From Deltaproteobacteria bacterium (GTDB lineage Bacteria > UBA10199 > SBBF01): a stretch of 33,261 nt of DNA. Of the stretch, positions 12,205 through 33,156 are shown in pieces (the stretch's first letter is position 1; the number at the start of each line of letters is the position of its first letter). Where the stretch lies: the NCBI GenBank assembly GCA_016183175.1, contig JACPFC010000103.1, positions 1 to 33,261 of the forward strand. Direction: 5' to 3'. The translations under genes and the position numbers were made by a program. The notes below the pieces were generated by a model, which was not told the origin of the DNA, searched no databases, and worked only from the letters and a program-made list of their open reading frames with translations.

Positions 12205-12300
12205 AATATCGGGGGCTTTGCCGCTGGCGCCCCCGTACCCCCCATTCGCTCGGACGGAACAAGTCCGATCCTCGCTCACAATAATTAACGAACCCAACGA

Positions 12301-12422
12301 CAAACAAAGAGAGTCCTTTTGGCGGCGCAATTTTCGTTCCCGCCAGCCACATCCGCCGACGATACAACCCAACTCCTAGCGGCTTGCGAAAATTGCGAAG
12401 ACAAAGGGACTCTCTTTGTTTG
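12301..12422. repeat. 122-bp palindromic element, copy A (tpiA-secG gap)
   Basis: The ends CAAACAAAGAGAGTCC and GGACTCTCTTTGTTTG are perfect inverted repeats. A second inner pair is GCAATTTTCG / CGAAAATTGC. The centre (about 12345-12377) is an unpaired or weakly paired loop. The element ends 5 bp after the tpiA stop. A second copy with conserved arms but a diverged centre lies at 28470-28592. Fifth-base C in the left arm and G in the right arm are T and A in the other copy, so pairing is kept. Confidence 0.9.
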
Positions 12423-12427
12423 CGGCA

Positions 12428-13183
12428 TCAGGTATAATTAACAATCCGCGCAAAAGAGTCAACCTCAAGCGAGGCCCCCCCCACCAACACCCCGTCGATA
12501 TCGGGTTTTTTCATCAGAACCGCAGTGTTGTCGGGTTTGACCGATCCACCGTACAGAATCCGCATCTGACCCGCCGCAGACGCCGTGAAATGCCGCACAA
12601 ACCACCGGCGGATCGCCTCGTGCACCTCTTGGGCCTGTTCGGGGGTGGCGTTTTTGCCCGTCCCGATGGCCCAGACCGGCTCATAGGCAATAACCAGCGC
12701 GGGCGCCGACGAGGCAAAAACCTCTTTCAGTCCTTCTCCCAGCTGTCTTTCAATGACCTCCGCTGTTTTACCCTTGTCGCGCTGATCTTCCGTCTCGCCG
12801 ATGCAAAAAATCGGCGTCATCTCATTGGCGAAAACAGCCGCGATTTTTTTGCAAACCTCTTTGTCCGTTTCGTGAAACAACTGCCGCCGCTCCGAATGCC
12901 CCACAATCACATACTCGCAGTTCAGCTCTTTAAGAAACGCCGCGCCGATCTCGCCGGTAAAAGCCCCCTTCTCCTCCCAATGGCAATTTTGCGCCCCCAG
13001 TTTGACCGTTGGCTTCTCGGAGAGCGCCACCGAAAGCGAATACAGAGAGGTGAAGGGGGGGCACAAGACAACTTCCACCTGCCCCTCGGACGGCAAATCT
13101 TTCTGGATGCGGGTGGCGAACTTGAGCCCCTCCTTTACCGTATGGTTCATCTTCCAGTTTGCGACAATAAGAGGCTTGCGCAC
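12428..13183 (-). CDS. tpiA: Triosephosphate isomerase
   Basis: A 251-residue glycolytic enzyme interconverting DHAP and glyceraldehyde-3-phosphate. The catalytic Lys is in NWKMN near residue 12, the catalytic His in VGHSERRQLF, and the catalytic Glu in AYEPVWAIGTGK. The phosphate loop LYGGSVKPDN and GVLVGGASLE complete the TIM barrel. The start is GTG at 13183, supported by a GGAGG Shine-Dalgarno at 13191-13195 that overlaps the end of pgk. The gap to pgk is 2 bp. A large palindromic element begins 5 bp after its stop. Confidence 0.98.
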   Translation of the reverse strand: MRKPLIVANWKMNHTVKEGLKFATRIQKDLPSEGQVEVVLCPPFTSLYSLSVALSEKPTVKLGAQNCHWEEKGAFTGEIGAAFLKELNCEYVIVGHSERRQLFHETDKEVCKKIAAVFANEMTPIFCIGETEDQRDKGKTAEVIERQLGEGLKEVFASSAPALVIAYEPVWAIGTGKNATPEQAQEVHEAIRRWFVRHFTASAAGQMRILYGGSVKPDNTAVLMKKPDIDGVLVGGASLEVDSFARIVNYT

Positions 13184-23024: not shown

Positions 23025-23588
23025 TTAAAAGATATATTCGTTCTTTTCGGTGATGACTTTTTTCAGCCGGCAATCCCACGCATCCGCGGGGAGTTCATCC
23101 ACCACCTGAAAATCGTAGGCCAGCCCTACCGTCCGGTTGGGAAAGTTTTTCAGCAGATTGTCGTAAAACGCCTTTCCGTAGCCCAGGCGATGCCCCTTTT
23201 TGTCGAAGACAATTCCCGGCGCGACAATCAATCCCAGGTCTTCGAGTTTTTCCAGCGGTGGACAACTGTCTTTAGGCTCGGGGATTCCCCATGCCCCTTT
23301 TTGCAGATCGGAGGGCTCTTGCACCTCATAAAAACGAAGCCCCTGTTCCACGCGCGGAAAATAAACGGAATATCCCGACTCGAGGGCCTTCATGAACAGG
23401 AGTTTGGTCTCCACCTCGTTCTTGATGGGGGCATAGAGGCCGATATTCTCCGTCTGCCCCCACACCTCCGATTTGATCAGCTTTTCCTGAATCGGCTTGC
23501 TTAAAAGATGAACCTTCTCCTCGGGCAGGGCCAGCCTCTTTTCAAGCATTCCCTTCCGCAGTTCTTCTTTTTTCGGATTTTGTGTCAT
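23025..23588 (-). CDS. fthC: 5-formyltetrahydrofolate cyclo-ligase
   Basis: A 187-residue enzyme converting 5-formyl-THF to 5,10-methenyl-THF with ATP. The diagnostic motif GHRLGYGKAFYD near residue 132 and the N-terminal KEELRKGMLEKRLAL are present, as are YFPRVEQG and LIVAPGIVFD. It lies directly after the 6S RNA, as ygfA does in E. coli. Its start (ATG at 23588) is 21 bases after the 6S RNA end, so it is probably read from the same transcript. Confidence 0.96.
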   Translation of the reverse strand: MTQNPKKEELRKGMLEKRLALPEEKVHLLSKPIQEKLIKSEVWGQTENIGLYAPIKNEVETKLLFMKALESGYSVYFPRVEQGLRFYEVQEPSDLQKGAWGIPEPKDSCPPLEKLEDLGLIVAPGIVFDKKGHRLGYGKAFYDNLLKNFPNRTVGLAYDFQVVDELPADAWDCRLKKVITEKNEYIF

Positions 23589-23608
23589 GGAGAATTTAAA
23601 ACAAAAAA

Positions 23609-23797
23609 ATCCCCGCCATTAGGCCGTTTGGGCAGTTATTATTTTTGAACCCTGATTATATCAGGTGGGGCCCATTTTACCCCTTTAGGCTTCCCGCCAC
23701 ACTACGAGGCGGGCATGCTCACCAGGGCAAGGGACAGGCCCCTTTTTAATTCTATCGGTTCTAAAATAATGTAACTCCCCTCGCACCAGGCAGGGAT
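23609..23797 (-). ncRNA. ssrS: 6S RNA
   Basis: About 189 nt between zapA and fthC, the conserved proteobacterial location. The ends pair: ATCCCTGCC at the 5' side with GGCGGGGAT at the 3' side. The minus strand contains GGTGAGCATGC (23713-23723) followed by a hairpin and GAAGCCT, closely matching E. coli 6S; ACCGATA and CAGGGTTCAA match other conserved blocks. A T-run (seven A on the plus strand at 23603-23609) closes the 3' end as a terminator or processing site. 6S RNA mimics an open promoter and binds sigma-70 RNA polymerase. The ends are approximate. Confidence 0.92.
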
Positions 23798-23798
23798 C

Positions 23799-24101
23799 TT
23801 ACATTCTTTCTTTTTTCAATTCCGACACGGCCTCTTCACTGCCGGAAAGCAATTCCTTCATCCGGCCAACCCAACCCCGAACTTTTTCCGCCTGCCGGCG
23901 CTTTTCGTTGAACAGATCCTCCGCGATATTCAGCGCCGCCAAGATGGCCACATTGGCCGTGGAGATCGCCTTTTTGCTCGCGACGATCTCGTGCATCCTC
24001 TTATTAACATAATCGGCCACTTTTTTCACCTGTTTTTCGTCAGCCTCCGTTTTGATGGTGAAGGGCTGATCCAAAATGGTCAGGTCATAGGATTTTTTCA
24101 T
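23799..24101 (-). CDS. zapA: Cell division protein ZapA
   Basis: A 100-residue FtsZ-ring-associated protein. The N-terminal globular part (YDLTILDQPFTIKTEADE) and the helix VKKVADYVNKRMHEIV, then ANVAILAALNIAEDLFNEK, match ZapA; the C-terminal half is a Glu/Lys-rich coiled coil for dimerisation. It bundles FtsZ filaments. A strong promoter lies 26 bp before its ATG, and the 6S RNA begins right after its stop. Confidence 0.95.
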   Translation of the reverse strand: MKKSYDLTILDQPFTIKTEADEKQVKKVADYVNKRMHEIVASKKAISTANVAILAALNIAEDLFNEKRRQAEKVRGWVGRMKELLSGSEEAVSELKKERM

Positions 24102-28469: not shown

Positions 28470-28592
28470 CAAATAAAGAGAGTCCTTTTGACGGAGCAAT
28501 TTTCGTTCCCGCCAGCCACATCTGCCGGTGAGACAAGCCTGCTCTTAAGCGGCTTACGAAAATTGCGAAGGCAAAGGGACTCTCTTTATTTG
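28470..28592. repeat. 123-bp palindromic element, copy B (xerD-M50 gap)
   Basis: The ends CAAATAAAGAGAGTCC and GGACTCTCTTTATTTG are perfect inverted repeats, and GCAATTTTCG / CGAAAATTGC form an inner pair. It begins 10 bp after the xerD stop codon on the minus strand. The arms match copy A at 12301-12422 almost completely; the centre has several substitutions and one extra base. Confidence 0.9.
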
Positions 28593-28602
28593 CCGTTTAA
28601 CC

Positions 28603-29544
28603 TTACCCCCTCGGATGAAATTTTTCGTGAATTTCAATCAGCCGTTTGCGGGAGACGTGGGTGTAAATCTGCGTCGTGGAGATATCCGCATGGCCGAGCA
28701 TCACCTGGACCGAGCGAAGATCGGCCCCCCCTTCCAGCAAATGCGTGGCAAAGGAATGACGGAGGACATGGGGGCTTAAACGGGTTTTGATCCCTTTTTT
28801 GAGGCCGTATTTCCTTAAGGTCATCCAGAAGGCCTGACGGCTTAATTTTTTGGCGCGACGGTTTACAAAAACAAAGGGCGATTCGCGCTCCTTAAGCAGT
28901 TTGGACCTCCCGTCTGTGAGATACACCCGGATCGCCTTGACAGCGGAGGTGCCGATCGGAACCACCCTCTCTTTCGACCCCTTGCCGTAGGCCAAGAGAT
29001 ACCCCTCAGCGAGATGGAGGTGCATCATCTTTAAGCCCACCAGTTCGGAGACGCGCAGACCGGCGGCGTAAAGAAGCTCCAGCATCGCCTTGTCGCGCAG
29101 GCCGGCGGCGTCATCCGCCTCCGGCGCCGAAAGGAGGCGGTCAATTTCCAGGACCGTCAGCACATGCGGGAGTTTGCGGTGGATTTTGGGGAGGTCCATG
29201 TTTTGCGTGATATCAACCGGAACAATTTTTTCGCTAGTGAGAAACTGGAACAGGCTCCGGATCGCCGTCAGGTTCCGCGACATGGTGCGGCTATTTACCT
29301 TCTGGTTTTTGCGTCCGATGAGGAAGTGGAGAATTGTTTGGGGGGTAATGCTCGAGATTTCGACCGGGTCAGGATTTTTTGAACTTTGAACTTTGAACTT
29401 TGAACTTTCCCCGGCACTTTTCCCTTGAAGATACTCCGCCCATAATCGTAAGTCATGCCCATAGGCCTCCAGCGTGTTTTTGGAAAGGCCTTTCTCGACG
29501 GTGAGGTAATTTAAAAATTGGTCGATGAGGGAATCGAGGGACAT
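28603..29544 (-). CDS. xerD: Tyrosine recombinase XerD/XerC family
   Basis: A 313-residue tyrosine recombinase that would resolve chromosome dimers at dif. The N-terminal core-binding domain (LIDQFLNYLTVEKGLSKNTL) is followed by the catalytic domain with AAGLRVSELVGL (Arg), HVLRHSFATHLLEGGADLRSVQVMLGH (His-x-x-Arg and His) and the Tyr in TQIYTHVS. The length is slightly above the usual ~300 because residues 46-57 (GESSKFKVQSSK) are encoded by four GAACTTT units in a loop of the N-terminal domain. XerD is favoured over XerC by overall similarity, not certain. It heads the minus-strand series. Confidence 0.92.
   Translation of the reverse strand: MSLDSLIDQFLNYLTVEKGLSKNTLEAYGHDLRLWAEYLQGKSAGESSKFKVQSSKNPDPVEISSITPQTILHFLIGRKNQKVNSRTMSRNLTAIRSLFQFLTSEKIVPVDITQNMDLPKIHRKLPHVLTVLEIDRLLSAPEADDAAGLRDKAMLELLYAAGLRVSELVGLKMMHLHLAEGYLLAYGKGSKERVVPIGTSAVKAIRVYLTDGRSKLLKERESPFVFVNRRAKKLSRQAFWMTLRKYGLKKGIKTRLSPHVLRHSFATHLLEGGADLRSVQVMLGHADISTTQIYTHVSRKRLIEIHEKFHPRG
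29381..29408. repeat. Four tandem GAACTTT units inside xerD
   Basis: GAACTTT is repeated four times exactly (28 bp). It is translated on the minus strand as part of SSKFKVQSSK. It is the tandem core of the repeat family seen at 6024-6087 and 24903-25996. Confidence 0.9.
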
Positions 29545-31289: not shown

Positions 31290-31362
31290 GGGAGGCTAGC
31301 TCAGTTGGTAGAGCACCGCCCTTTTAAGGCGGGTGTCCCGGGTTCGAATCCCGGGCCTCTCA
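31290..31362 (+). tRNA. tRNA-Lys(TTT)
   Basis: A 73-nt cloverleaf: acceptor GGGAGGC with GCCTCTC, D-arm GCTC-AGTTGGTA-GAGC, anticodon arm CCGCC-CTTTTAA-GGCGG (anticodon TTT), T-arm CCGGG-TTCGAAT-CCCGG, discriminator A. No CCA is encoded. Confidence 0.96.
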
Positions 31363-31387
31363 CAAAACCCACTGATGGTGGGCTAGT

Positions 31388-31444
31388 TGGTCGTTGATGG
31401 TCGATAGTCGATGGTTGTACCTCTATCAACCATTTTCCATCGAC
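31388..31444. repeat. GTCGATGG-type inverted repeat between the two tRNAs
   Basis: Short units of TGGTCG, GATGGTCGATAG and TCGATGGTTG recur, and TCGATGGTTG is mirrored imperfectly by CAACCATTTTCCATCGA. It fills the spacer between tRNA-Lys and tRNA-Glu. A further small hairpin (TCCGCAAAGCGGA) lies just before tRNA-Glu. Confidence 0.6.
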
Positions 31445-31471
31445 GAGCACCCAGTCCGCAAAGCGGATTTT

Positions 31472-31544
31472 GTCCCCTTCGTCTAGCGGTCCAGGACACC
31501 GCCCTTTCACGGCGGTAACACGGGTTCGATTCCCGTAGGGGACG
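31472..31544 (+). tRNA. tRNA-Glu(TTC)
   Basis: A 73-nt cloverleaf: acceptor GTCCCCT with AGGGGAC, D-arm GTCTAGCGGTCCAGGAC, anticodon arm CCGCC-CTTTCAC-GGCGG (anticodon TTC), T-arm CGGG-TTCGATT-CCCG, discriminator G. No CCA is encoded. The open frame of the recombinase fragment on the opposite strand runs through it, which is incidental. Confidence 0.96.
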
Positions 31545-31574
31545 CATTTCAGTAAATGTGCGGGATTTTTTAAA

Positions 31575-31602
31575 AAAATCGGCGGCGAGCGCCGCCGATT
31601 TT
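31575..31602 (+). terminator. Hairpin downstream of tRNA-Glu, probable terminator
   Basis: AAAATCGGCGGC (31575-31586) and GCCGCCGATTTT (31591-31602) form a 12-bp perfect stem with a 4-nt loop, ending in a short T-run. It lies 30 bp after tRNA-Glu and could terminate the tRNA transcript on one strand and the recombinase on the other. Confidence 0.55.
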
Positions 31603-32278
31603 GCGGAAAAAGAGCCCCCCGAAGAGCCCCCCAAGAGATTGGAATTAAAAGAATTGCCCCCCAAAAGAGCCCAGGGATTTTTGAATTCAAAAGAAAGCCG
31701 CCGCCCCCCCACGCGAAAGTTCGAGCCGATTTTTTTGAGCATTTCTCGCTGAGTTTCCAAATTCGCACCGTTCGCCGCCAGCTTACCCGCATGGTGAGCC
31801 GCTTTGAGGAAGTTTTTGGCCGGTTCGAGCCAGCCCGTAACCCCCTTTTCCAGATTGGCCAGCTTGGCCCTTAATTCCATCTCCCGGTTGACCAGCCCCT
31901 TTTTGGTTCGCTGATATTCCGCCTTGTCGATTAGCCCATCTAAATGGGCATGAAGAAGACGGTCCTGTTTAACCCTGATTTGAAGCAACTCCCGATCCAA
32001 TTCCTTTTTGACCTCGGCAACCGGCTGGCTCGCCTCAAGGCCCATTTGGCCTAAAATTTTGAGCGCCTCGGCAAAGGAGTCATCCGGCAGAGCGATTTTT
32101 TGGAGGGCATTTTTGATCTGTTGGGCAAAAGGCTCCTCTCGAAGGTAGTTTTTCTCCTCACAGGGCCCTAGTTTTTTCGTACAGCGATAATAAACATTCC
32201 CCTTTTGCCGCTCTGCCGTGATGGCTCCGCCGCACGAGGCGCACTTTGCCAGGCCAAGAAGAGAAAAACGGTGTTTCT

Positions 32279-32998
32279 TTACCTTGTGGGGTTTTCCACG
32301 GGCGCGATCAGACCATAATAGAAAGGGTTCTGGAAAATTCTGTGGACCATGCCGAGAGAAAGTGTTTTTCCCGCCCGGCTCGCCAGACCCCATTGGAAGG
32401 ATAATTTTCTTGATTGGTCGATCGTATATCGGCCGGTATCGTAAGTCTCAAAGAGCCGCTTGATCAGTGGGCCTTTTACTGGATCCACCTTGGGAAAAGA
32501 ATTTCGGCCGCCGGGCAGATACCCCAAGGGGGGCGGGAAAGGCCATTCACCCCGGCGAAGTTTTTGGCGCTGACCTCTCTTCACGTTCTGGGAGAGATTG
32601 TCGATGAAATATTTGCTCTGACCGAAGGCGATATTGAGCATGAATTTGCCCTGAGGGGTGCTCTCGAACCAAAATGTGGGAAATTTGAGAAATTTGAGAT
32701 GACCGGTGTCGAGTAAATAAATGATCTGGCCGCCATCTAATGAGTTGCGGGCCAATCGATCCGGGTGCCAGGCGATGATGCCATTCGCCTCACCTTTCTC
32801 GATGCGTTTTAACATTTCCTTAAAAACAGGGCGGCCGGGGACTTTAGCTGTCATCGACTCGGTGAACTCGTGGACGATTGATAGTTTCTCCCGTTCGGCG
32901 AACAGACGGGCCTCGACCAACTGGGCCTCGATGGACAAGACCTGTTTTTCCTCGGTGTCGGTCGATTTTCTCGTGTAAAGGAAATAGTTGTCTTTCAT
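32279..32998 (-). pseudogene. Serine recombinase, N-terminal fragment
   Basis: About 239 residues. The resolvase catalytic domain has the nucleophile Ser in YTRKSTDTEEKQ near residue 9, then SIEAQ, AWHPDRLARNS and the long helix GQSKYFIDNLSQNVKRGQ. The recombinase domain begins GEWPFPPPLGYLPGG and runs to IFQNPFYYGLIAPVENPTR, where it stops. Intact relatives continue with roughly 30-40 residues (a GKHEPII-like stretch) before the KPHK region now in the other frame, so a deletion with frameshift has broken the gene. ATG 32998 has a GGGGGAGG Shine-Dalgarno. Confidence 0.85.
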
Positions 32999-33156
32999 GC
33001 TAGCCTCCCCCAAAGGGGCCCCATAGGGGCGGGTGGGTGTTGAAGAAAAAAACTCTGGGCCGATTGTGGATCAAATTGAGTTCACATTGCAAGAATTGAT
33101 CGCATTTGGCTCGCATCTCGGGCTCACTCGCTCGGCTCGCAGGCCCGAAGGGGATG

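Follow-up and report, generated by a model that had tools for sequence, protein, structure and literature searches.

A lineage-specific family of hairpin repeats with compensated stems at gene ends in an uncultured deltaproteobacterial lineage

Introduction

Compensated base pairs serve as the standard proof that an RNA is functional. In contig JACPFC010000103.1 of a Deltaproteobacteria bacterium (assembly GCA_016183175.1; UBA10199, SBBF01), a stretch of 33,261 nucleotides, called the window here, contains two copies (A and B) of a two-stem palindrome that differ by one compensated pair. The locus raises the question of what kind of element these copies represent and what keeps their stems paired. 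The original prediction took the compensation as a sign of selection on structure and named a structured RNA, a MITE-like element and an mRNA 3'-end stabiliser as candidates. The reading that we favour, with about an even chance of being right, is that the copies are old, now largely immobile MITE/REP-like hairpins at gene ends, symmetrised by template switching, kept for their fold and perhaps acting as intercistronic or 3'-end RNA hairpins. The analysis centred on the window's own genome (G000) and a sister-genus genome (G002, 84% complete), both of which are fragmented metagenome assemblies. Single copies of the element are denoted by L numbers, and its plus strand was defined as the strand carrying GCAATTTTCG...GAAGA.

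Two hairpin copies in the window

Direct reading of the sequence confirmed copy A (122 nt) and copy B (123 nt) as they had been described (Table 1). Both contained a perfect outer stem of 16 bp and an inner stem of 10 bp, and in each copy the outer stem extended across a T.G pair to 21 bp. The predicted compensated change was likewise present, pair 5 of the outer stem being C-G in copy A but T-A in copy B, together with the short distances to the stop codons of the minus-strand genes (5 nt for triosephosphate isomerase at copy A and 10 nt for the XerD-like recombinase at copy B). The neighbours on the envelope side were identified by Pfam as SecG at copy A and an M50 peptidase at copy B, as proposed. 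Folding of both copies was much stronger than that of shuffled sequence on either strand, with z values from -6.6 to -8.4.

Two other features of the window were observed. A 6S RNA (RF00013, 108.9 bits) was located at 23606-23799 on the minus strand and was adjoined by the ORFs 23025-23588 and 23799-24101. Two plus-strand tRNA genes (31290-31362 and 31472-31544) adjoined minus-strand ORFs that look serine-recombinase-like by sequence (32279-33013 and 31383-32393), and the region 31290-33013 is possibly a decayed tRNA-associated integrated element.

Table 1. Positions of the two hairpin copies, their parts and adjacent features in the window
Feature	Position	Strand	Remarks
Copy A, hairpin element	12301..12422	+	Full-length match to all three covariance models; 23 BLAST relatives in genome
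Copy A outer stem, left arm (21 nt)	12301..12321	+	Partner 12402-12422
Copy A internal loop, left side	12322..12326	+	With 12397-12401 forms the conserved G.A / R.A / A.G mismatch block
Copy A inner stem, left arm GCAATTTTCG	12327..12336	+	Partner 12387-12396
Copy A apical region: short CCGC/GCGG helix and variable loop	12337..12386	+	
Copy A inner stem, right arm CGAAAATTGC	12387..12396	+	
Copy A outer stem, right arm	12402..12422	+	
ATAATTAAC, left copy of exact 9-bp direct repeat	12281..12289	.	11 bp outside copy A
ATAATTAAC, right copy of 9-bp direct repeat	12434..12442	.	11 bp outside copy A
Copy B, hairpin element	28470..28592	+	
Copy B outer stem, left arm	28470..28490	+	Partner 28572-28592; pair 5 T-A vs C-G in copy A
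Copy B inner stem, left arm	28496..28505	+	Partner 28557-28566
Copy B inner stem, right arm	28557..28566	+	
Copy B outer stem, right arm	28572..28592	+	
Triosephosphate isomerase gene, upstream of copy A	12428..13183	-	PF00121; stop 5 nt from element
XerD-like tyrosine recombinase gene, upstream of copy B	28603..29544	-	PF00589; stop 10 nt from element

Extent of the family and comparison with known repeats

BLAST with copy A recovered 24 copies in the window's genome (E values from 8.5e-59 to 3e-22), and covariance models added 10 more divergent copies, giving 34 in total. At least 28 copies of full length were found in the sister-genus genome, along with about a dozen that were truncated or reduced to a single arm. 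The BLAST and covariance-model search of relatives, which had been proposed with the original prediction, placed the hairpin family in these two genera; no copy was found in a third genus of the same family or in about 95 other relatives from the rest of the order, the class and more distant genomes. The weak matches that a search of 39 genomes gave in G004, G008 and G036 (E about 0.004) were attributed to chance. When the motif was scanned against 84,980 species genomes, a set from which the window's genome is possibly absent, only JACQOY01, the sister-genus genome, matched; the collections of plasmids, phages and viral contigs gave no match to the element. With Rfam 15, at gathering and permissive thresholds, only sub-threshold matches to microRNA-type hairpins were obtained; the original prediction had likewise recognised no known family in the element. 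Although some copies could be read through in an open frame, indels of 1 base in the loop interrupt it from one copy to the next, and a protein-coding element was rejected. The family is a previously unlisted, lineage-specific hairpin repeat of about 120 bp, which is non-coding, dispersed and intergenic. Loop length also varied, with a long inserted loop at one extreme and, at the other, mini-hairpins made up of nothing but the outer tips (G002:C51:8139-8373, C235:1849-1939, C123:3334 and C204:6515).

The description of the element as MITE-like held, as the copies were dispersed and intergenic with empty sites in relatives. The ERIC, Correia (NEMIS) and RUP MITEs are non-coding, intergenic, dispersed elements of 100-200 bp with long hairpin transcripts and empty sites (PMC2229807). 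The hairpin family is likewise short, non-coding and dispersed, with terminal inverted repeats and empty orthologous sites, but in contrast to these MITEs it has no TA terminus or consistent target-site duplication, its outer arms differ completely between subfamilies while the geometry is fixed, and the element lies inverted at half of its shared sites. REP elements are palindromic and lie downstream of genes, between tandem or convergent genes (PMC3733652). The hairpin family is also palindromic and located at gene ends, whereas REP/REPIN units are 20-40 bp long with a GTAG or CGTC tag and the present element is about 120 bp with neither tag seen. No RAYT (Y1 transposase) was found in the sister-genus genome (84% complete) and one 70-aa fragment was found in the window's genome, and a REPIN/RAYT identity was rejected on both the tag and the RAYT results. 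The hairpin family is MITE/REP-like but carries neither the defining features of REP/REPIN nor the target duplication of MITEs.

The attC site of integrons is an imperfect palindrome recognised as a folded strand, with shape conserved more than sequence and a variable terminal loop. The hairpin family resembles it as an imperfect palindrome with a variable terminal loop and a shape better conserved than its sequence, but it comes without cassettes and is scattered between housekeeping genes, and no consensus of the RYYYAAC / GTTRRRY boxes was seen in its arms or flanks. The form of an intrinsic terminator, in which a U run comes after a short G+C-rich stem, was not found either, the stem being an interrupted one of 21+10 bp with a loop of about 50 nt and no U run following the divergent copies; a strong terminator was rejected on the positions in likely operons and the lack of a U run. 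At the L112 site without the element, a hairpin of the ordinary terminator type, with a T run, was present.

Fold and covariation

The geometry of the element was fixed and consisted of the 21-bp outer stem, a G.A internal loop, the 10-bp inner stem, an apical CCC...GCTT motif and a variable loop. In the 48 main-type copies, 97% of the stem cells were paired, and two-sided changes occurred at 18 of 35 pairs (64 cells, compared with 6.2 in shuffles). In 15 diverse copies, two-sided changes occurred at 23 of 31 pairs (107 cells, compared with 29 in shuffles), with a covariation score of 0.67 against at most 0.21 for slid partners. Between subfamilies the outer arms were almost wholly replaced with pairing retained, and the geometry was identical despite the unrelated arms. 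One divergent copy had AGAGCTTCGCCATTATTTTTT as its outer arm and another had GCAAAACATTGGATCGTTTTT, each near-perfectly complementary to its own partner arm, and two divergent copies contained a different inner stem, ATCGTTTTTG.

In nearly every main copy, and in most divergent ones, the internal-loop block was made up of G.A, purine.A and A.G. Among the 48 main-type copies, G.A was found in 38 and A.G in 44, and in none was the loop fully Watson-Crick. Because the G.A block is present on one strand only, it defines the polarity of the element. In one copy, L022 (G000:C89:3483-3625), an insertion of about 20 bp in one arm was itself palindromic (GTGGCAGCGCCAC...) and resembled a small hairpin landed in the stem.

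Insertion and age

Empty orthologous sites were found in G002 for copies L002, L008, L011 and L020 and in the relative G001 for L001 and L009, which shows that the copies were inserted. Eight sites were occupied in both G000 and G002, with homology in both flanks and boundaries that matched exactly or nearly so. At two further sites, a remnant in G000 contained the same unusual arm variants as a full copy in G002 (L064, L072). In the gap before era, G002 retained only a mini-hairpin of the tips, and at the site of a gene that we take to be tsaE it retained half an element. Copy divergence, loop included, was the same within genomes as between them. Conversion between copies would lower the divergence within genomes below that between genomes, so concerted evolution was rejected as unsupported. 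The copies at shared sites were not clearly closer to each other than random copies, with L012/L037 as the sole mutual best match, and some shared sites may have been occupied by independent insertion. We infer a burst of insertion before the two sister genera split, with little spread since, leaving a family that is now largely immobile.

The flanks showed no excess of direct repeats when compared with mismatched flanks, and an IS-derived MITE with duplications was rejected. An exact 9-bp repeat was found only at copy A; this repeat, ATAATTAAC, the sole case among the 48 copies tested, is possibly a target-site duplication. No autonomous partner transposon with these ends was seen in the two fragmented assemblies, and the single-arm matches were truncated copies. 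TAAC near the tips appeared enriched by eye but was sometimes a stop codon and followed no clean rule, and it was rejected as part of the element or as its target. Another short palindrome, TAACNGCTCRGGTGGTTCA (TAACTACTCAGGTAGTTC in its perfect form), flanked five copies (L007, L009, L012, L036 and L070) and stood alone at G000:C104:7601; among the seven genomes searched, it occurred only in the two carriers. In the gap upstream of cinA, G000 contained a divergent-type element (L167, C21) and G002 a main-type core with new arms (L078, C178).

Probable template switching between the arms

Template switching between inverted repeats in yeast results in arm homogenisation and spacer inversion, with inversions of 2-5 bp (PMC8604942). 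For RNA genes, the reconstruction of their histories has led to the suggestion that stems can arise and persist through template switching (PMC8794818). In the hairpin family, the element was inverted relative to its flanks at four of the eight shared sites (L016/L061, L021/L075, L023/L033 and L024/L067), with unambiguous alignment scores, and 15 compensated pairs had arisen within shared sites. The two-sided Watson-Crick changes in the outer stem comprised 36 transitions and 21 transversions, a ratio equal to that of the loop (214:137; Fisher p 0.88), which counts against stepwise RNA compensation since a path through G.U would favour transitions. In addition, pairing extended into the flanks (67% at the first outward position against 41% expected), and in L078 the arms were wholly new, one arm pair having been replaced outright. 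These results point to template switching between the arms of the hairpin, with arm homogenisation and spacer inversion at orthologous sites. Both outcomes are common to the yeast cases and the hairpin family; in contrast to yeast, the hairpins form a whole bacterial repeat family with conserved sites, and the inverted loops are about 50 nt. Since template switching makes compensated stem pairs without selection, such pairs, which here would in part be products of DNA replication, do not on their own prove a working RNA. The step from compensation to selection on structure, taken in the original prediction, stands as far as the stems were kept paired in many copies, while its use as a case for selection on an RNA is weakened by the signs of template switching.

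Gene context and the RNA reading

Among the alternatives, the one that survives best, although we consider it unlikely, is a cis-acting RNA element that acts between operon genes as a signal of mRNA processing or stability, such as an RNase III substrate or an exonuclease block, and evolves by ordinary RNA covariation. The strong covariation and the conserved purine G.A internal loop are consistent with it, as is the placement of the copies at gene ends and between cistrons: 36 of 50 main-type copies lay -22 to 27 nt from a stop codon, and copies were present within likely operons (tpiA-secG, upstream of era, and ftsA-ftsZ). It is also supported by the divergent copies, of which all eight that follow a gene were on the coding strand (p 0.008), most of them 0-3 nt after the stop, at sites including aroB-aroQ, ribF-aroE and an efflux operon. 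In the main type, however, orientation to the neighbouring gene was random (14 against 13, by heuristic gene calls) besides being inverted at half of the shared sites, G.U was not favoured over A.C on the transcribed strand of the copies with a clear gene direction (15 and 14), and one third of the compensated changes were of transversion type, for which no G.U path exists. An RNA role is plausible for the divergent-type copies; for the main-type copies, A and B included, an mRNA role was not supported by orientation or by the G.U/A.C counts. The earlier suggestion of an mRNA 3'-end stabiliser is accordingly a candidate mainly for the divergent copies with their one orientation after the gene. 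In L013, L019, L035 and L065, the TTTTGA of the left arm appeared to supply the stop of the upstream gene, with the element encoding the last residues of the protein.

Probable selection on the fold

A second alternative, which we regard as improbable, is purely mutational: the copies would be inert remnants of an old MITE burst without present function, and their arms would be complementary only through homogenisation by template switching. The loop inversions, the loop-like ratio of transitions to transversions, the pairing into flanks, the outright replacement of an arm pair in L078 and the truncated and solo-tip copies all agree with this explanation. Against it, template switching alone would pair the mismatched internal loop, which was never converted to full pairing in the 48 copies, and the inner stem had diverged by only 5% at shared sites, ten times less than the silent (fourfold-degenerate) sites of the flanking genes (48%). 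Both points argue that the fold is also selected, and the identical geometry of subfamilies with unrelated arms likewise speaks against mutation alone. The outer stem had diverged by about 15% and the loop by 27-39%. The earlier claim that the stems are constrained and the loop is not was correct for the stems, but the loop, compared with the fourfold sites, was more conserved than had been thought.

A third alternative, a folded single-stranded DNA substrate, is very doubtful. Its shape would be recognised as in attC sites or in the hairpins of IS200/IS605 and REP elements, and a tyrosine or HUH enzyme would move or recombine it. In its favour, shape was conserved over sequence, the G.A loop was strand-specific, insertion occurred without consistent target duplication and G.T exceeded A.C on the element's own strand whatever the gene direction (22:7; p 0.008 if the copies are independent, which shared ancestry weakens). 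Against it, there was no RAYT-type transposase beyond the 70-aa fragment in G000, neither a GTAG nor a CGTC tag was present, the arms showed no attC R-box and no cassette array was seen. A related conjecture, also rather improbable in our judgement, is that the element is coded by shape, with an enzyme or RNA machinery reading the folded strand (21/5/10 geometry and G.A loop) with any arm sequence and in either orientation. If this were true, the arms would be free to turn over completely, and the element would be a new hairpin-recognised one, distinct from attC, REP and IS200/IS605.

Proposed history and meaning

The favoured reading, of old gene-end hairpins symmetrised by template switching and kept for their fold, would proceed as follows. 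Before the sister genera split, a hairpin unit of about 120 bp would have spread by insertion to the ends of many genes and to gaps between cistrons, and one strand would fold into the fixed shape, the conservation of which was observed directly while its folding in the cell is presumed. During replication the arms would pair and the polymerase would switch template between them, as four independent signs suggest. The switch would copy new mutations from arm to arm and could turn the loop round in place, so that the arms would stay complementary while their sequence turns over. The folded strand would also be under selection, in keeping with the retained mismatched loop and the little-diverged inner stem. 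In the most tentative step, the hairpin would be transcribed from the neighbouring genes and may act as an intercistronic or 3'-end RNA hairpin.

In the hairpin family, compensated pairs occur together with loops that have been inverted at fixed sites, and the mutation spectrum differs from that of stepwise RNA evolution. The family therefore offers a case on which the separation of template switching from selection on structure can be tested; the retained G.A internal loop, which the mutational process alone would be expected to remove, serves as an internal control. With this family, the uncultured lineage also gains a multi-copy repeat that had not been listed before.
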